DNA from: Acetobacter okinawensis JCM 25146
GTDB taxonomy: Bacteria > Pseudomonadota > Alphaproteobacteria > Acetobacterales > Acetobacteraceae
Assembly: GCF_000613865.1 (NCBI RefSeq)
Contig: NZ_BAJU01000011.1
Location: 1 to 64,000 of the forward strand
Length of the DNA: 64,000 bases
Direction of reading: 5' to 3'
The position numbers and the translations under genes are program-made. The notes below the pieces were generated by a model that had not been told where the DNA came from, did not search any database, and saw only the letters and a list, made by a program, of their open reading frames with translations. Positions 13,118-30,308 of this stretch are shown piece by piece (position 1 is the stretch's first letter; the number at the start of each line of letters is the position of its first letter).

Positions 13118-13732
13118 TCAATCTTGCAGCACTTTCAGGTCTCTCAAGGCAGCAACAAGGGGGAGAAGCGGCAAACCCTGAATGGAAAAGGCATCTCCTT
13201 CTATGGCCGCAAACAATTGTATGCCCGGGCCCTCCAGCCGGTAAGAGCCAACTGAGCCAAGGCAGGCCGCCCCTTCCAGACTTAAATAGTGCTCTACAAA
13301 CTCAAGGGAGAACATGCGCATGGTCAGTCTGGGGCTGCTCACATGGTGCCAGAGAATCTGCCCATTAAAACACAGGACCACGGCGGTATGCAGACTATGC
13401 GTTTTGCCCCTGAGCTGGAGCAGTTGCTGGCGTGCCCCTTCCAGCCCCTCCGGCTTGTCGTACCATACCCCTTCGCAACTGAGCATCTGGTCTGCCCCGA
13501 TCACAATCGTATCCGGCTTTTGAACCGACTGTGCTTTTGCCTCTGCAAGGCGGAGCGCTACAGCATCGGCTGACCAGTTCTGCTGGCGCCCCATCTGCTT
13601 GAGAGGGGTCTCATCCACCGAGGAGGCTTCAACATCAAAGACCAGTCCCGCATTTTCCAGAATACGCCGCCTGGCAGCAGAACCACTGGCCAAAAGCAGT
13701 TTGTCTGCTCTGTTCTGTATTAGAGTCGGCAT
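13118..13732 (-). CDS. maf: Maf-family nucleoside triphosphate pyrophosphatase
   Basis: The 204-residue protein shows the Maf signature LLLASGSAARRRIL near residue 15, SVDETP near 40 and IVIGADQMLSCEG near 80, ending with LEGPGIQLFAAIEGD and GLPLLPLV. Maf enzymes hydrolyse non-canonical or methylated NTPs to monophosphates in the cytoplasm. The start MPTLIQNRADK is preferred to the ATG six codons upstream because it matches family length. In alphaproteobacteria maf commonly lies next to the origin, and here it faces hemE across the candidate origin region. Confidence 0.92.
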   Translation of the reverse strand: MPTLIQNRADKLLLASGSAARRRILENAGLVFDVEASSVDETPLKQMGRQQNWSADAVALRLAEAKAQSVQKPDTIVIGADQMLSCEGVWYDKPEGLEGARQQLLQLRGKTHSLHTAVVLCFNGQILWHHVSSPRLTMRMFSLEFVEHYLSLEGAACLGSVGSYRLEGPGIQLFAAIEGDAFSIQGLPLLPLVAALRDLKVLQD

Positions 13733-14033
13733 TAGTACTAAATCGGTCACGGAAGCGAGTCTCTTTCAGGTACTGGTTGAAAATGGGGCTGTGAGTACTA
13801 TCCTGAGTACCGGGGTACATGTGGATTGTACGGAGTTCAGAACATGGCCTTACCGAGTACCGGGCACAACATGCAACTTCCGTGAACCGGTGAGTTGTAC
13901 ACAGGGGTCTTGGAATGTTTTCTGGATAACCTCAAAAACCCTTTATTTTGCAAGGGTCTTGAAACTGTACACACTGTGGGAAACATGGGGTACATTTTTG
14001 GAATGCCGGGTACCCCGTTATCAACAGTACCCT
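13732..14033. repeat. Cluster of twelve GTAC sites
   Basis: GTAC begins at 13735, 13770, 13795, 13807, 13815, 13828, 13857, 13897, 13967, 13990, 14010 and 14027, against about 1.2 expected in random DNA of that length. Flanks recur: GAGTACCGG twice, GGGGTACAT twice, TGTACACA twice, and TTAGTACTAA is a perfect palindrome. The sites end before hemE. Their meaning is unknown; they may be protein-binding or methylation sites of the origin. Confidence 0.9.
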
Positions 14034-14118
14034 CATATCTCATCAAACCTTTTTCTTTCTTTTTTTATAGGAAGAGGGGCGTGGACAGCGCGGACAAAGA
14101 CGTGCAGGACTTCTGCTC
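13733..14118. other. Candidate chromosomal replication origin (oriC) between maf and hemE
   Basis: This 386-base non-coding gap lies between maf and hemE, and next to hemE is where the origin sits in Caulobacter and some other alphaproteobacteria. Four nonamers match the DnaA consensus TTWTNCACA at 8 of 9 positions: 13,895-13,903 (+), 13,921-13,929 (-), 13,975-13,983 (-) and 14,018-14,026 (+); a weaker one is at 13,820-13,828 (-). A T-rich stretch at 14,048-14,070 could be the unwinding element. Two GANTC sites for CcrM-type methylation start at 13,723 and 13,757. The nearby parA, parB and parS sites support the call. It is an inference from position and motifs. Confidence 0.75.
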
Positions 14119-15198
14119 ATGACAACGCAAACACATATTCCCCCCGCCAAACGCCTGCTCAGAACTCTGAACGGAGAGGCACTGTGGCCCCCTCCGATGT
14201 GGTTGATGAGGCAGGCTGGCAGGTTTTTGCCTGAATTCCGCGCCATGCGGGCACAGGCAGATTTTCTGACCCGTTGCATGACCCCGGATATTGCAACCGA
14301 GTTGACCCTACAGCCTATCCGCCGTTTTGGCATGGATGGAGCTATCCTGTTCTCTGATATTCTGATCCTGCCCTGGGCTATGGGTCAGTCCTTGGAGTTT
14401 GTGGAAGGGACTGGCCCTGTTCTGGGTGCCATTCGCTCCGAACAGGACCTGAAAGCCCTTGATCCTGCAAGGATAGCCGAAGCAACAGCCCCTGTGCTTG
14501 AAACCCTTACGCGCCTGCGCAAAGCTGTAGATGGACCAGACAGCATTGGTGCGGCCAAACCGGGGGCAACAACATTGCTTGGCTTTACCGGAGCGCCCTT
14601 TACCGTGGCCTGTTACATGGTGGAAGGTCGTGGGTCGCGCGAGTTTTCTGTAACGCGGAACATGGCTTTTTCTGAACCAGCGCTTTTTGACAGGCTTATG
14701 GCCCTGCTGACCGAGACAACGGCGACCTATCTGTGCGCCCAGATTGAAGCAGGGGCTGAGGCCGTCATGTTGTTTGATTCATGGGCCGGGCTTCTGCCTC
14801 CTTCGGAATTTCGCCGTCTTGTTATCCAGCCCAGCCGACAGATTGTGCAGACAATCAAGGCCCGTTATCCGCATGTGCGGGTTGTAGGCTTCCCCCGTTT
14901 GGCCGGGGTTATGGCTGCAGAATATGCGCGTGATACGGGGGTTGATGTTCTTGCCCTGGATACCGGAGCAGACATGGCTGCTGTGCGCAACATGGTGCCG
15001 CAGACACTGGGTTTGCAGGGGAATCTGGACCCGCTAGCGGTTCTGGCTGGCGGTGAAGCCATGCGGCGTGAAGCCCTGCATGTGCGTGAAGCCGGTCGTG
15101 GTCGTGCGCATGTGTTTAACCTCGGACATGGCGTTCTGCCACAGACACCTGTTGAACATGTGGCTGACCTTGTGCGGACCGTGCGGGAAACAGCCTGA
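14119..15198 (+). CDS. hemE: Uroporphyrinogen decarboxylase
   Basis: HemE decarboxylates uroporphyrinogen III to coproporphyrinogen III in cytoplasmic haem synthesis. The intact 359-residue protein has the N-terminal signature WLMRQAGRFLPEF, ILFSDILILPWAMG near residue 80, GFTGAPFTVACYM near 155 and the C-terminal GNLDP and VFNLGHGVLPQTP blocks, all typical of the family. It is the first gene of an apparent hemE-HAD-hemJ operon: its TGA overlaps the next ATG by one base. It reads away from the candidate origin. Confidence 0.97.
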   Translation: MTTQTHIPPAKRLLRTLNGEALWPPPMWLMRQAGRFLPEFRAMRAQADFLTRCMTPDIATELTLQPIRRFGMDGAILFSDILILPWAMGQSLEFVEGTGPVLGAIRSEQDLKALDPARIAEATAPVLETLTRLRKAVDGPDSIGAAKPGATTLLGFTGAPFTVACYMVEGRGSREFSVTRNMAFSEPALFDRLMALLTETTATYLCAQIEAGAEAVMLFDSWAGLLPPSEFRRLVIQPSRQIVQTIKARYPHVRVVGFPRLAGVMAAEYARDTGVDVLALDTGADMAAVRNMVPQTLGLQGNLDPLAVLAGGEAMRREALHVREAGRGRAHVFNLGHGVLPQTPVEHVADLVRTVRETA

Positions 15199-19541: not shown

Positions 19542-20861
19542 GTGGGGTATCAGGGGGAAGACATTATTTTTGCTCTTTCTACAGGGGTGGAGCGTGCGGC
19601 CATTGCTGTGATGCGCGTGAGCGGCAAAGGCAGTGCGGACCTGCTGGCAAAACTCTGTGGCCCGCTGCCTCCCCCGCGCAAGGCCGTTCTGCGGCGCGTG
19701 TGGCAACAGGCCGATGTGCAGGACACCTTGTTGGACGAAGCTCTTGTCCTGTGGTTCCCCGGGCCAAAAAGCTACACGGGGGAAGACGGGTTTGAACTGC
19801 ACCTCCACGCAGGGCCTGCCGTTATTCAGGCTGTTGCTCACGCTCTTGTTCTGGGAGGGGCGCGCCCAGCAGAACCGGGCGAGTTTACGCGCAGGGCCTT
19901 TACCAACAACCGGATGGATCTGGTTGAGGCCGAAGGGGTGGCAGACCTTGTTGCGGCCGAAACCGAAAGCCAGCGTAAGCAGGCTCTGGCTCAGGCAGAT
20001 GGTGCATTAAGCCGCGTTTATGCAGGATGGGCCGAGCAGCTTAAAAAACTTCTGGCATTCCAGGAAGCGTTGATCGACTTCCCGGATGAGGATATCCCCC
20101 CCGAAGTGGAGGCTGAAATCCGCGCGGGTATTGCCCAGCTTGTGGAACAGATGCAACGCCATATTCAGGATGGCAAGCGGGGGGAACGTATCCGCCGGGG
20201 TGTAGTTTTTGCCATTGCTGGCCCCCCCAATGCGGGCAAGTCCAGCCTGTTGAACTGGCTAGCCGAACGTGATGCCGCCATTGTTTCTCCTATTGCTGGC
20301 ACCACACGGGATGCGCTGGAGATTGTAGGGAGTCTGGCCGGGATCAAGGTCACATTCGTGGATACGGCAGGCCTGCGCGATACCGAGGATGCTATTGAGG
20401 CCGAGGGGGTAAAGCGCGCATTGTTTCACGTGAAACAGGCAGACTGTGTGGTGCAGATGTTTGCCGCAACGCAGGTGCCGCAAAGTGTTTTCCCCGGTGC
20501 TCTTCTGGTAGGGAACAAGCTTGACTTGGCCCCTCTTCCAGCCGAGGTAGAGGGGGTGGCGGTTATTCCGGTCAGCCTGAAAAACTCTCAGGGGCTGGAT
20601 GCACTGCGCCAGATTCTGGAGCACAAGGTGCAGGCACTCACGGCGTCTTCTACCGGTATGCCGTTGCTGACCCGTGCGCGCCATAGTGCCGGCGTGCAGG
20701 ATGCGTGCAACAGCCTGCAAAGAGCGCTTGAGCAGGACTGGCCGGAAGTGCGGGGTGAGGAACTGCGGCTGGCCATGCGCGCCTTGGGGCGGTTGACCGG
20801 GCACGTAGGGGTGGAAGAACTGCTGGACGCCATTTTCGGGCAGTTCTGTATTGGTAAATAA
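19542..20861 (+). CDS. mnmE: tRNA uridine-5-carboxymethylaminomethyl(34) synthesis GTPase MnmE
   Basis: The 439-residue protein has the folate-binding N-terminal domain ([37 protein letters not shown]), a helical domain, and an inserted G domain with [12 protein letters not shown] (G1), GTTRD (G2), DTAGLRDT (G3) and NKLD (G4), and the terminal CIGK motif. With MnmG it makes the cmnm5 modification at U34 of several tRNAs. The start is a GTG at 19,542. The coding sequence contains a perfect parS site (20,422-20,437) that forces the peptide FHVKQ. mnmG follows at once. Confidence 0.96.
20422..20437. promoter_or_regulatory. parS centromere site inside mnmE
   Basis: TGTTTCACGTGAAACA, the perfect 16-bp palindromic ParB binding site. 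It lies within mnmE, about 6.4 kb from the candidate origin, as expected of origin-proximal parS sites. Confidence 0.97.
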
Positions 20862-22767: not shown

Positions 22768-23352
22768 AAATGATCATGTTTCACGTGAAACAGAAGAGCG
22801 CCTGCACGCCTATATGGCCCTGCTCCGCAAATGGAACGAGCGGATCAATCTGGTCTCCCCCAAAGATATGGATAACCTGTGGGAGAGGCACATTCTGGAT
22901 AGTCTACAGCTTGTACCTTTGATAAAAGGGCGCAGGCAATTTGTTGATATGGGGTCGGGTGGTGGCTTTCCCGGTATTGTTGTCGGGATTGCAGCAGATA
23001 TTCCGGGTGTGCTGATCGAATCTGATCAGCGTAAATCCGCGTTTCTGCGCGAAGCGGCCAGAGTAACCGGGGCGCGACTGAGTGTTCTGCCCTGCAGGCT
23101 GGACCGTGCAGAGGTGCGCCCGCGCCGGTTGTTACCGCCAGAGCGCTCGCCCCATTGGAGAAGTTGCTGGAATGGGCGCGTCCCTTGCTGGAGCCTGACG
23201 GTGTTGGCCTGTTTTTAAAAGGACGGCAGGCCGAGCAGGAAATTGAGGAAGCCGCACGGACATGGCGGTTTGATGTCCGGTCATGGCCAAGCAAAACAAG
23301 CCCTGATGGTGTTATTCTGGAAGTGAGTAATTTTAATCGTGCAGAAGGCTAA
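22757..23352 (+). CDS. rsmG: 16S rRNA (guanine(527)-N(7))-methyltransferase RsmG (one apparent frameshift)
   Basis: RsmG methylates G527 of 16S rRNA using SAM. The N-terminal frame gives [34 protein letters not shown] and the SAM motif [12 protein letters not shown]; after a break near 23,119-23,121 (a CCC run that should have one more base) the other frame gives [18 protein letters not shown] and the end. Restored length is about 199 residues, normal for the family. A perfect parS site is embedded in codons 7-12, encoding the VSRET seen in many alphaproteobacterial RsmG proteins. The ATG overlaps the mnmG end by 11 bases; a GTG two codons upstream is an alternative start. Confidence 0.92.
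22777..22792. promoter_or_regulatory. parS centromere site at the start of rsmG
   Basis: A second perfect TGTTTCACGTGAAACA, 2.36 kb from the first and 0.6 kb before parA. It is read in a different frame (HVSRET) than the copy in mnmE (FHVKQ), so DNA sequence rather than peptide is what has been conserved. Confidence 0.97.
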
Positions 23353-24129
23353 CAAAAACAGCAAAAGCTGCTGCATCCTTGCAGTAGCAAACCAGAAGGG
23401 TGGGGTCGGCAAAACAACGACCGCCATTAATCTGGCCGCAGCTCTGGCAGCCGATGGCGCTCGTGTTGTGCTGCTGGACCTGGACCCGCAGGGTAATGCC
23501 TCTACCGGGGTGGGTGTCAGCTACGATGCCAGAAAGGGCGGAGCGTATGCGCTGCTCATGCACGAAAAATCCGCACAGGACCTGCTACAACCTACTGAGA
23601 TTGATAACCTGTCCGTTATCGCGGCCAATACGGAGCTGGTAGGCGCTGAAATTGAACTGGTGGAAACGCAGGGTCGTGAATACAGGTTGCGTGAGGCACT
23701 GGAGCCACTGGCCGGGCAGACGGACTACATCATCATCGACTGCCCCCCAGCCTTGGCCTGCTGACCCTGAACGCGCTTGTGGCGGCACATGGTGTTCTAG
23801 CCCCATTGCAGTGCGAGTTCTTCGCGCTTGAAGGGCTTGGGCATCTGGTCAAAACAATTGGTCATGTGACCAAAGACATGAACCCCACCCTAAAGGTGGC
23901 TGGCATTGTGCTGACCATGTATGACAAGCGCAATAATCTGTCCGAACTGGTTGCGGCAGATGCCCGCAGCTTTTTTGGTGATGATGTGCTTGAGACCATT
24001 ATCCCCCGTAATATTCGTATTTCCGAGGCACAGAGCCATGGTTTGCCGGTCATGACATATGACCCCCGTGCAACCGGGGCGACGGCCTATCAGGCGCTTG
24101 CCGCCGAAATTATGAGGAGAACGGCATGA
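23339..24129 (+). CDS. parA: Chromosome partitioning ATPase ParA (one apparent frameshift)
   Basis: The product has the deviant Walker A of ParA/MinD proteins ([17 protein letters not shown]), [10 protein letters not shown] and IIIDCPP near residue 135, then the second half with [21 protein letters not shown] and [14 protein letters not shown]. ParA forms ATP-dependent nucleoid-bound gradients that move ParB-parS complexes. The frame breaks in a run of six Cs at 23,743-23,748; a seventh gives [13 protein letters not shown], the usual family sequence, so a sequencing error is likely in this essential gene. The start is a GTG that overlaps the end of rsmG by 14 bases. It overlaps parB by four bases. 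Confidence 0.94.
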
Positions 24130-25037
24130 GCGCGCCACCACGGAGCAAACCCGCAGCCCGCCCCAAACTGGGGCGGGGGCTTGCCGCATTACTGGGTGAA
24201 CCCGCAGGAGTATCCTCCAACGGGCAAAGTGGTCAATCTGAACAAAAAGGGGGGTCTGTGAGCGTTCTTCCGGTTGAAGCTCTGGTTGCCGGGCCGTTCC
24301 AGCCACGGCAGGATATGGAACCTGCTGCTCTGGAGGAACTGGCCGCATCCATCCGTGAGCGTGGTATATTGCAGCCTATTCTGGTGCGCCCGGACCCGAA
24401 TAAAAAAGGCCAGTACCAGATTGTTGCAGGTGAACGGCGGTGGCGCGCAGCACAGCTTGCCCAGTGCCATGAAGTACCCGTGCACGTGCGTGACCTGAGC
24501 GAAGCCGATGCCATGGCTGCTGCTCTGGTTGAAAACCTCCAACGCGCAGACCTCAACCCAGTGGAAGAGGCCGAGGGCTTTAATCGTCTGATGGATGATT
24601 ACAGCCTGACGCAGGAAGACCTTGCCAAAGCCATTGGCAAATCCCGCCCCCATGTTGCCAACACGCTGCGCCTGCTCAAACTACCTGCTGGCGTGCTAGG
24701 CGCCCTTAAAAAGGGTGCTCTCTCTGCCGGCCATGCCAGAGCCTTGCTCCCGCACCCTGATGCGGTTGCGGCTGCTGCAGAAGTGATTGCCAAAGGTTTG
24801 TCCGTGCGGCAGACAGAGGCATTGGTGCAAAAGGCGCTGGAGCAGCAGGGCAACGCTCCGGTGGTCAAAGAGAAAAAAGCGAGAAATCCCGAAATCGCGG
24901 CCCTTGAGCGGGATTTAGCCAGCAAGTTGGGGCTTAAAGTTGCCGTCAATTTTGATGGGCGCAAAGGTGGTTCGCTGGAAATCCACTATAAAAGCCTTGA
25001 TCAGTTGGACACAGTTCTGGCTTTGTTAAAATCCTGA
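24126..25037 (+). CDS. parB: Chromosome partitioning protein ParB
   Basis: The intact 303-residue protein begins with a basic [10 protein letters not shown] segment that contacts ParA, followed by the CTP-binding domain with GPFQPRQ and the [10 protein letters not shown] box, and the helix-turn-helix [27 protein letters not shown] that recognises parS. The C-terminal part is the dimerisation domain. ParB loads at parS, spreads as a CTP-dependent clamp and directs origin segregation. Two perfect parS sites lie 1.3 and 3.7 kb upstream. The ATG overlaps the parA stop (ATGA). Confidence 0.97.
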
Positions 25038-25104
25038 ATTTTCAGGCTTGTGCTTATTTAAAAGGGGTGGTAAAAGACCCCCACTTCAGCCAAATAGGCT
25101 GTAA

Positions 25105-25207
<103 letters not shown>

Positions 25208-25236
25208 AAGGTTTCAGGCTGGCAGGGTTCTCCTGC

Positions 25237-25265
25237 TTCCGGAGTCAATCCGGAGTCATTTGAAA
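25237..25265 (+). repeat. Left copy of a 29-bp subterminal repeat
   Basis: TTCCGGAGTCAATCCGGAGT followed by CATTTGAAA, itself a tandem pair of TCCGGAGTCA. The same 29 bases occur in the same orientation at 36,495-36,523 near the other end of the element. Confidence 0.9.
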
Positions 25266-25976
25266 CCGCGTTTTCTGAGCTGGCATGGGGCAGGGTTCTT
25301 TCCAGCCACAGATTTTCTCTCTCAAAAACCTGACAGCCTTGGCCCTCCGGCTACCTGTGTGTCTTTTTGTTTCAATTTCGCGGATGCAAAAATTTGCCCA
25401 TGGCGCGGTCCGGGTGCTCATGGCCGCTAGAGATTGGATACCCCCATCCCCATGACAGTCACCAGCGTTTGAAAACTTGATTTTTTTCAAACAGCCGAAA
25501 AAATCCGCGCGTGAGCCTGATGCGGTTGCGGTGCCCAAGGGCATCCCGACTTTCCGATAGCCCCCGGCCTATGAGCCAAGGTTGAGATATGCGCTTTACG
25601 CATGACCTTGGCCGCGTCACACCTTCCCGTTCTTACCACCCCTACCCAAAAAAAGGTGTATCAGGTGTAACAGGTGTATCACTCTGGATAAGTGACTGAT
25701 TTACTTATCTAAAAGTGATACACCTTTTTTGTTCTGGCTGTTACACCTGCCGAAAATAGGTGTATCACTTTGAAAGCATGAATGGCTGTTTTCTGCCATT
25801 CATAGGGATATTGCCGCTCTAAATGGCTGGTTTTCCCTGCTTTTTGCCCCTTAAAATACACATTTTTCGTTATGCTTTTGGTGCATAGCTCGGCCTGTTT
25901 TAGCTCTGAAATGCTCAAAAATCGGAAAAGAAACCCGCGCGCTGCCCGCGCACACCACGCACGCCATGCCCACGGC
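25266..25976. repeat. Left non-coding end of the element with 9-bp GGTGTANCA repeats
   Basis: No convincing gene is seen in this 700-base stretch. It holds three tandem 9-mers GGTGTATCA, GGTGTAACA, GGTGTATCA at 25,655-25,681, inverted copies at 25,716-25,724 and 25,739-25,747, and a further direct copy at 25,759-25,767. A GATAAGT/ACTTATC inverted repeat lies at 25,686-25,708. These look like arm-type integrase sites or replication iterons. The last part (25,770-25,976) is unremarkable. Confidence 0.8.
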
Positions 25977-26537
25977 TCACGCAGGCTCGGCTGCATCCTT
26001 GCAGCGATAAACAGAGGCCCGGCTTATACCAAGACGGCTGGCAATCTCGGTGGCGCTCATACCCTGCTCCATAAGTGCCTGCACTTCGGTGGCCTGATTG
26101 CGGGCTGTAGGCTTTCGTCCTTTATAACGTCCGTCCGCTTTAGCCTTGGCTATGCCTTCCATCTGGCGTTCCCGGCGGAGGTTTGTCTCAAACTCGGCAA
26201 ACACACCCAGCATATCCAGAAAGGCTTTGCCTGCTGCTGTGCTGGTGTCAACGGGCTGTTCTGTGCAGCGCAAGGCTGCACCCTTTGCCTTGAGTTCCAT
26301 CATAATGGTTTGAAGGTCAGCAATAGAGCGGGCCAGCCGGTCTATGCGTGTGACGACCAGCACATCGCCCCGCTGGAGGAAGGCAAGCAGGGTTTGCAGT
26401 TCTTTCCTGCCACTAGTGCTCGACCCTGAAACCTTTTCGGAGCGAATGACCGTGCACCCGGCTGCGGTAAGGGTCTGCTCCTGAATGGTCAGGTCTTGGT
26501 CAGTCGTGCTGACTCGCGCATATCCGTAAATGGTCAT
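25977..26537 (-). CDS. Serine recombinase (resolvase/invertase family)
   Basis: The 186-residue protein begins MTIYGYARVSTTDQD, where the Ser is the catalytic nucleophile, continues with DVLVVTRIDRLARS and FAEFETNLRRERQMEGI, and ends with a Hin-type helix-turn-helix MSATEIASRLGISRASVYR. Small members resolve cointegrates or invert DNA segments. The start at 26,537 was chosen because the motif follows directly. A cluster of GTCTC repeats lies just upstream and could be its recombination and operator site. It may be cargo or may act on replication multimers of the element. Confidence 0.9.
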   Translation of the reverse strand: MTIYGYARVSTTDQDLTIQEQTLTAAGCTVIRSEKVSGSSTSGRKELQTLLAFLQRGDVLVVTRIDRLARSIADLQTIMMELKAKGAALRCTEQPVDTSTAAGKAFLDMLGVFAEFETNLRRERQMEGIAKAKADGRYKGRKPTARNQATEVQALMEQGMSATEIASRLGISRASVYRCKDAAEPA

Positions 26538-26542
26538 TCCGC

Positions 26543-26678
26543 GTCTCGTTTGTCTCAATAGGGTTTAGACTTTCTCTTTTATGTGTCTCAAAATTAAAAA
26601 TCAACCCATTTGAGACGCAGAAAACCGCCAACCCACTGTCTCACAAATTTGTCTCTATGGGGTATACTTCAAAGAGAC
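26543..26678. promoter_or_regulatory. GTCTC/GAGAC repeat cluster upstream of the serine recombinase
   Basis: Five GTCTC (26,543; 26,552; 26,585; 26,638; 26,651) and two GAGAC (26,612; 26,674) pentamers occur in 136 bases, several with the wider form TTTGTCTCWA or its inverse TTTGAGACG. Their place between the divergent start of the recombinase gene and the end of the DUF927 gene suggests a res-like site and promoter operator. Confidence 0.6.
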
Positions 26679-26756
26679 ACGGCGAGTCATGCTGTGGGTG
26701 CATACCGAGCGGAAATAGACCGGAGGGGAGACAGACACGCCCCCTCCGGCCATAAC

Positions 26757-28697
26757 TCACTCATTGCCGGTAGAGAGTGCCAGAATGTTTCCGGCCACCA
26801 CATAAAGCCGAATATTGCCAGCTTGCCCCGGTGGGCGGACAGATTGCGAGAATTTGCCCTCTTTATCCGGTATCAGCACACCACGCTCGGCCAGCACCTT
26901 GGTAGCATCCCGCAGGTTCAGGCCCGCCAGAGCTTCACGCATCCCCGAGGACGTGAGCATGTAACCCCAGCCCCATTGCCCCTCTTGCGTTTTGGCCCAG
27001 CGTCTCCAGCCTGCTTGGTTCTGTGTGCGGTATCTCTCTGGTGGTGGTTTGCCTTCATCCCATGACTGGGGGAATTCTTCCGCTGTTTTGTCCACCCAAT
27101 CCTGAAAGCGTGACGCACCATTGCGGGCAATGAAGTCGCGGAGTTGCTGCACGGCCTGTTCGTCTTCCCTCCGGCCGGAGGTGCCACGCGCCCGTAACCA
27201 GTCACCAAAGCATAGACTGACCAGAGCGTCTGCCGTATCGGCATCCCAGCCGGTCAGGCCAAAGGTGGTTGCCAGCTCACCGCCCACAGCAATCATGGCA
27301 AAGCGCCGGGCAACGGAACGTACCTGTCCGGAGGCGCGGGGCCAGTTTTGCAGGTATCCTGTTGCTATGGCTTCCAGACGCTCCAGCAGGCGTTCCCGTA
27401 GCGGGCGTATGCCTTCCTCCGCCATGAGGGCGGTCAGACGTTCCAGAAAGGTCCGAAAGGGTGCGCCGTAAAACTGCCCGCAGGCATTGCCCAGATAATC
27501 CGCAAACTCTCCAGCGCTATCCAGATGGTGCGTGTTCTCAAACAGGCCCATACCGGCCCCTGCATCGGCTGGCACGTCACAGTAGCGCACCTCCATGCCT
27601 GCTTTGGTGGCCCGGCCAGCCTCGGAGTTTACATCGGAAAGTGTTTTTTCGCCCGTTGACAGGAATAGCACCCGCCAGCGCGCAACAGTACGAGCAGAGC
27701 CGGTGCGACTGGCACGGACTTTGCCTTGCCCGTTGGCAAGCATGTAGCTCACATCGGCAATTTCTCGCGGGTCTAGCTGGCCTATTTCGTCCAGCGGTAG
27801 CAGGGCGTCACAACTTGCCAGCGCAACGCTTTCCAGTCCGTTGGAGGTAGAGCGCCAAGAGCGGGCATAGCCTTTGGCCCCTGCATCTGCCGTGCCACCG
27901 CATACGCTGGAGGCAACCAGCAATGCTGTGGACTTACCGGCCCGGCTGGCACCAAAGAGCGATATACCACCACCATCCAGCCCCAGCAGGCCGAGCAATG
28001 GTGCAGCGAATGAACTCGATACAGCCAGGACAAGACGACTGTTGCCCCGGCACAGCAAACCTATGTGCTGCTGCCATTCTTCCACCGTGCCAGATATGCC
28101 AAACAGATCCGTTTCCGGCTCGGCTGTTTGCAGCACTACCCGTTCGTCCATGTTGCCGTAGGTGGCATCTGGCAGCACATAGGCCCGGCCAGACGGCAGT
28201 GTATGCCAGCCAATGCGCCCGACCGACTGTGCCCGCTCTGGTGTGGAAACGCTGCTGAGCCAGTCTGCAAAGGCTGTCTTGGCTGCTGGGATGGCCGAAA
28301 GTGTAAGCCCACCGTCTGCAAGCTGGCTCCGCAGTTCGCCACAATCGCCACTGAACAGGTTACGCGGAAAAGCCTGTTCATGTTTTTGCCCGTCCCGGTC
28401 TATCCAGCCCAGCAGGATGCCCCAGCCTTTGCCATCTGGCCCGCGTGTTTCGGCTATGGCTTCAATGGGGCCGGACAGTTTCATATCATTTTTGGGGTTG
28501 TCCGCTGCTTTTCGGAACAGGCCATGAGCGTCACAGAAAAAGCGCCCGTCCTCTGTTTCTGTCCGTCTAGCGGAGGGCTTGCTCTTGGTGTCTTTATCCT
28601 TACCGCTTTTCAGTTTGATAACTTTGGCACCCGACAAAGCTGCCCGCACACCTTCACGACCTGTTCCGGCCTGTGTCTGGTTCGTTTCGGAGGACAT
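26757..28697 (-). CDS. DUF927-domain helicase-like replication protein
   Basis: About 646 residues: a charged N-terminus, then a DUF927-type domain and a P-loop ATPase with Walker A FGASRAGKST near residue 245 and Walker B ALLPLDEIGQ near 292, followed by RASRTG and VLFLSTGE, a possible sensor region. DUF927 proteins are fused to or paired with Toprim primases in mobile elements and probably unwind DNA at the element's origin. The ATG at 28,697 is preceded by GGAG about 10 bases upstream; another ATG lies five codons earlier. The 5' end overlaps the primase-like gene by 44 bases. Confidence 0.8.
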   Translation of the reverse strand: MSSETNQTQAGTGREGVRAALSGAKVIKLKSGKDKDTKSKPSARRTETEDGRFFCDAHGLFRKAADNPKNDMKLSGPIEAIAETRGPDGKGWGILLGWIDRDGQKHEQAFPRNLFSGDCGELRSQLADGGLTLSAIPAAKTAFADWLSSVSTPERAQSVGRIGWHTLPSGRAYVLPDATYGNMDERVVLQTAEPETDLFGISGTVEEWQQHIGLLCRGNSRLVLAVSSSFAAPLLGLLGLDGGGISLFGASRAGKSTALLVASSVCGGTADAGAKGYARSWRSTSNGLESVALASCDALLPLDEIGQLDPREIADVSYMLANGQGKVRASRTGSARTVARWRVLFLSTGEKTLSDVNSEAGRATKAGMEVRYCDVPADAGAGMGLFENTHHLDSAGEFADYLGNACGQFYGAPFRTFLERLTALMAEEGIRPLRERLLERLEAIATGYLQNWPRASGQVRSVARRFAMIAVGGELATTFGLTGWDADTADALVSLCFGDWLRARGTSGRREDEQAVQQLRDFIARNGASRFQDWVDKTAEEFPQSWDEGKPPPERYRTQNQAGWRRWAKTQEGQWGWGYMLTSSGMREALAGLNLRDATKVLAERGVLIPDKEGKFSQSVRPPGQAGNIRLYVVAGNILALSTGNE

Positions 28698-29715
28698 CGT
28701 TCCAGTCTCCATGTTCGATTTCTGGCACGGCGAGCCGAACCGTGCGGCCCTGCTGTGCAAATTGGTGAAGGGCAGCTTTCAGCGCCTTACGCGCAGCCGG
28801 ATTTCCGGCATCGTTATCAGCCGCCACAATAATTTCGGTAATGGTGTCAGGCAGTTTGACGGCAGCCATGTTGCTTAGGCTGACAGAGGCCAGAACACGG
28901 TATTCCGGGCAGGCGATGGCACAACTCAGGGCTGTTTCTATGCCCTCCGCCAGAATGGTCACATCACCATCCGGAGCCATGCCAAGGGCTGCACCAGAGG
29001 CACCACGCCATAGGCGGATGCACCCACCTGCAAAGCTACCCAGCACCTTTTTAGCATTTGCCAGTTCAGCTTTGCCCCATGCGCCGGAGGGTGCCTGTGC
29101 CAGCCATGTTCTGTGCACCGCAGCCATTTTCCCTGTTGGCCCAACGATTGCGGCCAGCATGGCAGGCAAAGGACGTTGCACCTCCGCACACCACACGGCG
29201 GGATGGAAGCGCAACGCACCCGGCGCACGACCAAGCAAGCGCAGGTCTATGCCACGGCCTTGCAGGTAGTGTTCGACCGGAGAGCCTGCAATGCCGGGCG
29301 CTGCGTCCTGCCACAGCCGCCGGGCCTTGGCCCTGCGCTGCTGTGCTTCCTTGTCCAGTTCAGGACTATTCAGTTTTTCTTGAACCGGAGGGCGCTGGAC
29401 GGGGGCATGTGGCGCGTTGTTCGACAGCCCCAGCCATGTGTTGGCCCATGCCATTGCGTCTTTGCGGTTATGGCTAAACAGGCAGGCGGCCACAAGATCC
29501 AGAGCATCGCCACGCTCCCCACTGGAGAAGTCACACCACAGCCCCCGCCGTGCACCTGTCAGACGCACAGCAAGGCTTTGCCCCGGCTCTCCAGCTAAAG
29601 ACCCTACGCGCCATTCCGCTCCGTCCTTTTTGCCATGCGGCAGCAGTTCAGGTGCTAGGCGCGTAATGTGGTCCGCCAGAAGCCGGGCCAGTTCGGAGGC
29701 GTTAGGCCGCTGCAT
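28654..29715 (-). CDS. Toprim-domain primase-like protein
   Basis: The 353-residue protein has an N-terminal CHC2-like/DUF7146 region (WCDFSSGERGDALDLVAA) without a clear zinc-finger set, a middle part with AVHRTWLA, and a Toprim domain with ILAEGIETALS (the metal-binding Glu) and IIVAADNDAGN (the DxD pair). Such proteins prime replication of plasmids, satellites and mobile elements. It is translated just before and overlaps the DUF927 gene, and together they form a replication module. The start MQRPNASEL is chosen because the preceding codons look unstructured. Confidence 0.85.
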   Translation of the reverse strand: MQRPNASELARLLADHITRLAPELLPHGKKDGAEWRVGSLAGEPGQSLAVRLTGARRGLWCDFSSGERGDALDLVAACLFSHNRKDAMAWANTWLGLSNNAPHAPVQRPPVQEKLNSPELDKEAQQRRAKARRLWQDAAPGIAGSPVEHYLQGRGIDLRLLGRAPGALRFHPAVWCAEVQRPLPAMLAAIVGPTGKMAAVHRTWLAQAPSGAWGKAELANAKKVLGSFAGGCIRLWRGASGAALGMAPDGDVTILAEGIETALSCAIACPEYRVLASVSLSNMAAVKLPDTITEIIVAADNDAGNPAARKALKAALHQFAQQGRTVRLAVPEIEHGDWNDVLRNEPDTGRNRS

Positions 29716-30308
29716 GGTCACACCAGTCTTTGGGGAGAATGGCAACACCACCCTCCGGCTCACAGAAAGCACGGCCAGTGATTAGTTCACGGGCGGCATG
29801 ATCGCGCTTGTCAGCCAGTTCCAGCAGTTCGCCCCAGCCGATCTGCTCCAACCAAAAAAGTGCCTCAGATGAACGGCTATTGCGGCATAGCGCCGCGCGC
29901 AAACGCACCAGCTGCCCGAATGGGAATAAACTCCAGTGCCGCATGTATGGGTCTGTCTTCGTCCACAAGGAGGCTTGAGAATGTGGCATCTGCCTCCAAA
30001 AGCTCAAGGACATAGCGCCAGACTGTTGCCAGCCCGGCAATGGCCATAGGCGAGGGAACAACGGCAAAATCCGTAATGCCATAAGGCCGGAGGGCTTTGA
30101 TTAAGTTCGGCTGTGACATGCTTTCAGGGAGGTATCCCTCAACACCTGCCAAGAAATTGAGCAGCCTAGCAAGCAGATTAGGACCATGAGCATCATAGTC
30201 CGACCACAGCCATGTGCAGGGTGTTTCCTCATACTGCTTTGCAACCTTGGCCATTTTCACGGTCGAGAGCATGGCGCCATGCGTCCACGTTGGCAGGGCA
30301 GTTCTCAT
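29702..30308 (-). CDS. Uncharacterised element protein with a DYDAHG motif (one apparent frameshift)
   Basis: This protein of about 200 residues starts MRTALPTWTHGAM and has a motif LWSDYDAHGPNLLARLL that resembles the DxD-HG signature of Toprim folds in JetD/TopoVI-like proteins, but it is much shorter than those. It then has FAVVPSPMAIAGLATVW and, after the frame break near 29,922-29,924 (a GGG run that seems one base too long), LVRLRAALCRN and ALFWLEQIGWGELLELAD. The overlap with the BRO-type gene upstream (ATGA) and the primase gene downstream (14 bases) shows it belongs to that operon. No function is assigned. Confidence 0.6.

Follow-up and report, generated by a model that had tools for sequence, protein, structure and literature searches.

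A conserved GTAC array at the chromosomal replication origin of acetic acid bacteria and an orphan methyltransferase as its candidate writer

Why should the short gap between two divergent genes, maf and hemE, be crowded with copies of a single four-base palindrome? Within the 64-kb stretch of DNA analysed here (the window), a preliminary description had reported twelve GTAC tetranucleotides in 13732..14033 of a candidate replication origin, and a direct count confirmed every position it named. Its estimate of about ten times the chance rate has to be split in two, being too low against the window as a whole (about 22-fold) and too high against local composition (about 6-fold). Across the window GTAC is an ordinary word, given a total of 117 copies vs a shuffle mean of 114.8. 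Per 300-bp window, 0.55 copies were expected and at most 12 were found (Poisson 9e-13); the cluster was the most extreme among the 252 non-homopolymer tetramers scanned at this window size, and elsewhere the richest 300-bp windows carry 4. Dinucleotide-preserving shuffles of the local 302 bp (n=3,000) gave a mean of 2.1 GTAC and a maximum of 7. The longer flanks said to be common to several sites were borne out as well, with GAGTACCGGG, GGGGTACAT and TGTACACA each occurring twice. With maf read on the minus strand from the ATG at 13732 and hemE starting at 14119, all twelve sites are intergenic; an alternative, longer maf start (GTG at 13750) would place site 1 within maf.

The features of the region are given below in window coordinates, with a strand where one is assigned and, in brackets, the basis of each call or the number of aligned loci that keep the GTAC.

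13121..13732, minus strand: maf (Pfam Maf, 1.4e-41)
13733..14118: assigned oriC, the maf-hemE intergenic region with the GTAC array (GC-skew turn; blocks conserved in 15 representatives)
13735..13738: GTAC site 1, adjoining the maf ATG (52/72 aligned loci)
13770..13773: GTAC site 2 (44/72)
13795..13798: GTAC site 3, GTGAGTACT (29/72)
13807..13810: GTAC site 4, GAGTACCGGGG (60/72)
13815..13818: GTAC site 5, GGGGTACATG (71/72)
13820..13827, minus strand: AATCCACA, half site similar to a DnaA box, flanked by GTAC sites 5 and 6 (named on resemblance only)
13828..13831: GTAC site 6 (68/72)
13857..13860: GTAC site 7, CGAGTACCG (67/72)
13895..13903, plus strand: TTGTACACA, DnaA-box-like 9-mer enclosing GTAC site 8 at 13897 (72/72)
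13921..13929, minus strand: TTATCCAGA, DnaA box with one mismatch (sequence match)
13965..13973, plus strand: CTGTACACA, DnaA-box-like 9-mer enclosing GTAC site 9 at 13967 (68/72)
13967..14013, plus strand: strict core GTAC-N19-GTAC-N16-GTAC, sites 9, 10 and 11 (107/397 Acetobacteraceae genomes)
13990..13993: GTAC site 10, GGGGTACATTTT (72/72)
14008..14016, plus strand: GGGTACCCC with GTAC site 11 at 14010 (72/72)
14018..14026, plus strand: TTATCAACA, DnaA-box-like, close to the T-rich element (alignment; TCATCCACA in many relatives)
14027..14030: GTAC site 12 (21/72)
14050..14069, plus strand: T-rich stretch, on sequence grounds a probable DNA unwinding element (T-rich block in alignments)
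14119..15198, plus strand: hemE (Pfam URO-D, 1.2e-112)
20422..20437, plus strand: parS-like TGTTTCACGTGAAACA (perfect match to the parS consensus)
22777..22792, plus strand: parS-like TGTTTCACGTGAAACA (perfect match to the same consensus)
24126..25037, plus strand: gene for a ParB-like protein (ORF of 303 aa, presumably ParB by its sequence)

Conservation of the array and of the bare word

The preliminary description had named two outcomes that would speak against the cluster, namely its absence from the same gap in related species and the presence of many similar clusters elsewhere; neither was observed. Among 110 loci related by hemE (sets of 30 and 80, with genomes partly overlapping), nearly all the acetic acid bacteria examined have 8 to 15 GTAC between maf and hemE, across Acetobacter, Gluconobacter, Komagataeibacter, Gluconacetobacter, Novacetimonas, Asaia, Neokomagataea, Acidomonas, Tanticharoenia and Brytella. 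Endobacter and three metagenome-assembled genomes have 6-7, nine loci of the Bombella/Saccharibacter type have 0-1, and one locus (L034) stops at hemE, with no gap visible. As to similar clusters elsewhere, a scan of the whole assembly (3.16 Mb, 127 contigs) for triple GTAC separated by no more than 30 bases each returned 26 forward places, 6 of them inside this single cluster, and no comparable second cluster.

The order and spacing of the array are fixed in an alignment of fifteen representatives. Over 72 loci (81 minus the nine of Bombella/Saccharibacter type, and with many close relatives among them), identity to the window is 0.865 in the GTAC columns vs 0.584 in the remaining columns of the span, and two regions of low G+C content (29-33%; L158 and L185) still hold 11 and 8 sites. 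Many relatives have an additional GTAC 7 bp upstream of site 7. Helical phasing was not apparent when the array spacings were compared by inspection with a 10.5-bp turn, and a search of plasmid sequences with the maf-hemE region gave no match.

To follow the element through the family, the strict core formed by sites 9 to 11 was searched in 397 Acetobacteraceae genomes from 102 genera. It was found in 107 genomes and 24 genera, about once per genome: there were 109 matches, two of which (the second matches in G406 and G419) were judged by eye not to be the element, and a reversed control pattern, as a measure of the chance background, matched 0-5 times per genome. Some arrays lack the strict core, as in the Acetobacter metagenome-assembled genomes from goat and sheep (8 GTAC, G011 included) and in L093 (6 GTAC). 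Deeper Acetobacteraceae carry 0-3 GTAC in the region (counts that leave out one 71-bp stretch, L140), often as a single GGTACCCC beside a ATCCACAGG-like box, and G160 has 6; the GGTACCCC sites of several of these array-less relatives are similar to GGGTACCCC. Fourteen genomes from other families of the class have 0-1 GTAC, counted in twelve of them on the 450 bp upstream of hemE because maf was not recognised.

Besides the fixed places, the word itself is enriched. Off the ten commonest positions, 27 representatives contain 66 GTAC vs 26 expected from base composition, the commonest of all 24 permutations of A, C, G and T there (the next-best reaches 35), although these extra sites are partly non-independent, since some places are common to a few genera and the representatives are related. 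Flanks differ among the 60 of these 66 sites that were compared. Selection thus acts on the palindrome itself in addition to particular positions. The flanks of the fixed sites are also conserved, as expected of a binding site.

That the cluster arose by chance or through composition, a reading whose one argument is the shortness of the word, has practically no probability left: it is ruled out by the Poisson value in the window, by local shuffles that never pass seven copies, and by conservation over 24 genera.

The array, the origin and DnaA

It is well supported that the GTAC array forms the core of the chromosomal oriC in acetic acid bacteria. The preliminary description had called the region a candidate origin, and GC skew in three genomes backs this. 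In the window, skew stays below zero until about 13.5 kb and is above zero past 14.5 kb. In G085, whose large contig of 3.41 Mb was sampled at 20 places of 8 kb, skew is negative from 0.72 to 1.74 Mb and otherwise positive, and the array, at 1.874 Mb, lies within the interval of the sole minus-to-plus switch (between 1.74 and 1.90 Mb). The strongest test was provided by a natural rearrangement in the third genome, G177. The array is adjacent to hemE in the window and in most relatives, but not in G092 (L110, Bombella dulcis), G177 (L111, Acetobacteraceae bacterium B3987, placed with Bombella by the hemE tree) and G161 (L118, Saccharibacter sp.). These have 0, 1 and 1 GTAC in the maf-hemE gap, respectively, and carry the array, its core spacing intact, on the contig of hemE but 20-26 kb away from that gene. 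In G177 and G161 the genes on either side of it presumably encode the small subunit of a dehydrogenase and a GMC oxidoreductase. Cumulative G-C, computed in 2-kb bins along 160 kb of G177, traces a V whose lowest point, 887.0 kb, is at the array (887.2-887.4 kb) and away from hemE (912.1 kb). In this genome the origin signal follows the array, not hemE.

The same relocations bear on the idea that the array regulates transcription of maf or hemE and sits at the origin only incidentally. Its position between these divergent genes in most acetic acid genomes examined would suit such a role; yet the three displaced arrays kept their spacing 20-26 kb from hemE, two of them have other genes on both sides, and the skew minimum of G177 went with the array. 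The relocated arrays in the main rule this reading out, and we give it very little credence.

The surroundings of the window's array fit a chromosomal origin in that two perfect parS-like sites and the ParB-like ORF at 24126 lie near it; ORFs within 11 kb of the array presumably correspond to mnmE, mnmG and parB. The parS-like site at 20422-20437 sits inside the frame that reads as mnmE. Beyond the origin, GC skew drops below zero once more over about 6 kb (24001-30000). This stretch, which contains an ORF on the minus strand (25977-26558) that we take for a serine recombinase, may be inserted DNA, given that ORF. The dnaA gene lies far from the origin in G100, G073, G126, G176, G089 and G085, and nearly opposite to it in several genomes, if the contigs are circular; it is at 1,964,963 with hemE at 611,160 on 2,701,842 in G073, at 1,660 with hemE at 949,066 on 1,945,806 in G126, and near the plus-to-minus skew switch in G085. 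In G122 and G160, dnaA is within about 35 and 187 kb of hemE.

Is the array, then, a matter of an altered DnaA? The DnaA recognition helix RDHTTVMHA is identical in 14 of 14 genomes, so that a new DnaA word does not explain the array and a changed DnaA specificity is not favoured. The preceding stretch, SLPEIGRKFGN, is the same in all seven array-bearing genomes and in three of the seven others (G127, G122 and G160); it differs by a single change in G148 and by several in the array-less G126, G176 and G089. Near the T-rich element, the predicted DnaA sites are one-mismatch boxes and TTGTACACA, the latter present in 29 of 29 array-bearing representatives. Exact TTATCCACA boxes occur in 2 of these 29 (mean 0.07) vs a mean of 0.43 in 37 deep relatives, and one-mismatch boxes are equally frequent in both sets (1.31 vs 1.30), the counts spanning regions of unequal length (320, 420 and 700 bp). 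Since the deep relatives are poor in exact boxes too, their scarcity is not special to the array; the set found in G126 (L159) is, with 14 exact TTATCCACA boxes in 700 bp of the maf-hemE region of a genome from which the array and the orphan methyltransferase introduced below are both absent. G176 and G089 have 1 and 2 exact boxes.

One might still suppose that DnaA reads TTGTACACA together with weaker relatives of it, and that the array is simply this clade's DnaA template. The constancy of TTGTACACA, the few exact boxes of array-bearing representatives set against the 14 of array-less G126, and the DnaA changes just before the recognition helix in three array-less acetic acid genomes all lean that way. 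Most GTAC sites (GGGGTACAT, GAGTACCG, GGGTACCCC) are, however, unlike a DnaA box, and neither the recognition helix nor the stretch before it separates array-bearing genomes from all others. Few exact boxes are likewise no mark of the array, as the deep relatives and the array-less G176 and G089 illustrate. On balance, we consider variant DnaA sites an unlikely explanation of the array.

Co-occurrence of the array with an orphan methyltransferase

When 21 genomes were scanned for PF01555, each proved to have a high-scoring enzyme (201-225 bits), which is probably CcrM, and 16 to have a second enzyme, about 270-300 residues long in the copies whose start is clear. This second protein, the orphan methyltransferase, retains TSPPYN and DPFxGxG in all 16 cases. 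A Tim44-domain gene lies upstream of it in 14 of the 16 loci, and genes for cytochrome c peroxidase, Smr or SecB are neighbours in many; G160 has none of these neighbours, and G073 has the peroxidase alone. In the window's assembly, the neighbourhood comprises Tim44, cytochrome c peroxidase, SecB, HemD, Smr and one ORF without a Pfam match. No restriction or nuclease gene was recognised beside the enzyme in this assembly, where a scan of three flanking proteins matched no defence model, the other 15 loci having been examined only for Tim44, cytochrome c peroxidase, SecB, HemD and Smr neighbours.

At a threshold of E below 1e-60, the enzyme was found in 171 of the 397 family genomes and in 3 of 289 genomes of the class, all three of them Acetobacteraceae. 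It is not wholly confined to the family, as a Paracoccus plasmid carries a 53% identical copy. Synechococcus phages have relatives at 44-47% that are annotated as DNA adenine methylase (e.g. GU071106.1 136558-137292). All 107 genomes with the strict core have the enzyme and none of the 226 enzyme-less genomes has the core, in counts that ignore common descent; 64 of the 397 have the enzyme without the core. The figure of 107 out of 107 is one that any gene universal in acetic acid bacteria would reach. Among 41 genomes that lack the core and have the region, those with the enzyme (n=9) average 2.33 GTAC vs 0.72 in those without (n=32; Mann-Whitney p 0.0009, kinship ignored), with a fixed 450-bp region used where maf was not found, the weak 35% match in G143 counted as absence, and G161 left out, its array being elsewhere. 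Several enzyme-less deep relatives keep one to three GTAC.

Both the core and the enzyme are absent from G126, G089 and G176. In the hemE tree these nest inside the acetic acid clade beside G130 (support 0.92), a genome with 8 GTAC and the orphan methyltransferase, and from this nesting array and enzyme were apparently lost together once. This is a single event, read from a single-gene tree with long branches, and the DnaA tree places the three genomes outside the acetic acid clade with weak support.

As for what the enzyme might modify, its nearest solved structures are 8urk and 9c3s-9c3u (phmmer E about 5e-22), which we take to be M.BceJIV, and N4-cytosine enzymes (8s9m-8s9o) match at about 3e-20. 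The former are too distant for a target to be transferred, and between the two sets the mark could be m6A or m4C. A methyltransferase gene linked to rnhB (yhdJ) appears as a thermotolerance gene in PMC5158111; judging from its rnhB neighbour, this would be CcrM rather than the orphan enzyme. GcrA is encoded by one gene per genome in 15 of 15 genomes (an extra match in G085 is a broken fragment, and where matches are paired, in G092, G126 and G160, they are neighbouring parts of a single frame), and the GcrA family therefore offers no second reader.

A possible methylation-gated origin and known systems

The preliminary description had proposed an undescribed origin-binding motif or a methylation target, and the conserved cluster together with the GC skew supports this pair of options. 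The company of the orphan methyltransferase makes the methylation target the better, if unproven, bet. In the mechanism that we propose, bare GTAC palindromes in an ordered array, between and inside DnaA-box-like sites and beside the probable unwinding element, would be the target of this beta-class enzyme, nearly confined to Acetobacteraceae and encoded elsewhere behind its Tim44-domain gene. Replication would convert fully methylated GTAC to the hemimethylated form, which might be sensed by DnaA directly or by another reader protein, and the hemimethylated state would then delay or permit renewed loading of DnaA. An oriC core whose methylation state gates DnaA loading in this manner has, in our judgement, an even chance of being correct, and a methylation-gated origin is the most economical account of the array. 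The wider proposal, that the clade runs a methylation-gated clock of its own with an orphan GTAC methyltransferase and, as reader, either DnaA or some protein that is not SeqA, that the rule of one initiation per cycle was hence invented again, and that array and enzyme were lost jointly, with canonical boxes instead in G126, is tentative and falls somewhat short of even.

The rival that carries most weight holds that a sequence-specific origin protein, be it a repressor or an orisome scaffold, binds sites centred on GTAC, methylation being irrelevant and the methyltransferase merely conserved in the clade. Fixed spacings and partly conserved flanks are what such a protein would leave behind, and enzyme-less genomes fit it too, in that some retain 2-3 GTAC and deep relatives such as G122 have GGTACCCC beside the last DnaA-like box. 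Against this, the less widely shared sites differ in their flanks (in the 60 of 66 compared) with GTAC still over-represented, four base pairs hold little information for a protein acting alone, and no candidate protein was found among the families examined. We regard such a binding site as a genuine, if rather doubtful, possibility.

Either way, the array defines a replication origin from sequence for a clade of industrial and insect-gut bacteria, and its signature allows oriC to be located even in rearranged genomes. Methylation of GTAC, if it occurs, would make this an independent case of methylation-based origin control, testable by the deletion of one gene, and would bear on how often Dam/SeqA logic was invented. 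Should GTAC be unmethylated, there is a strongly conserved origin-binding protein still to be discovered. For acetic acid bacteria, plasmids built on this origin and tools for synchronisation could follow. The earlier remark that no described GTAC-based system was known at an alphaproteobacterial origin stands in so far as open-access PubMed Central full text is concerned (subscription papers and REBASE lie outside that scope): among the matches listed, none dealt with GTAC at these origins and none presented a methylome of acetic acid bacteria.

Compared with known systems, the locus is unlike a Type II restriction-modification system, with no restriction gene recognised beside the methyltransferase in the window's assembly. 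The likeness to the GATC cluster and SeqA of E. coli, raised in the preliminary description, holds only as an analogy. In E. coli, a cluster of Dam targets also lies in the dnaA promoter. No such GTAC cluster was seen before dnaA in six array-bearing genomes (0-1 GTAC in 252-400 bp upstream), the seventh, G100, offering no sequence there. With the dnaA start guessed as the first M and 60 bp of gene subtracted, 12 of 14 genomes had 30-400 bp of upstream sequence that could be read, G100 and G126 being the exceptions. What the two origins have in common is a four-base palindrome clustered over a few hundred bases, partly in or beside DnaA-like sites (for E. coli, in part after PMC13076061). By analogy with Dam, the orphan methyltransferase would be the candidate writer of the acetic acid bacterial array; the word is GTAC, not GATC, and the candidate, of the beta class (PF01555), belongs to a class other than Dam.

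The origin neighbourhood is of the same kind as that of Caulobacter-type origins, and of the CcrM/GcrA/CtrA system a probable CcrM is present in 21 of 21 genomes and GcrA in 15 of 15. Unlike there, the clustered word is GTAC, not GANTC (GTAC being the most extreme tetramer in a scan of tetramers only, which GANTC lies outside), and the second PF01555 enzyme is a different protein, found almost only in this family. Another bacterial class offers a further parallel in Burkholderia cenocepacia, whose word is GTWWAC. Burkholderia proteins that match the orphan methyltransferase are about 29% identical to it, and we do not equate them with BCAM0992. According to PMC7364216, CACAG and GTWWAC are methylated at the B. 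cenocepacia origins through BCAL3494 and BCAM0992, and the orphan BCAM0992 methylates GTWWAC at sites between DnaA boxes. The two systems are alike in having an orphan enzyme, a word of the form GT...AC and sites among the DnaA boxes of the origin.
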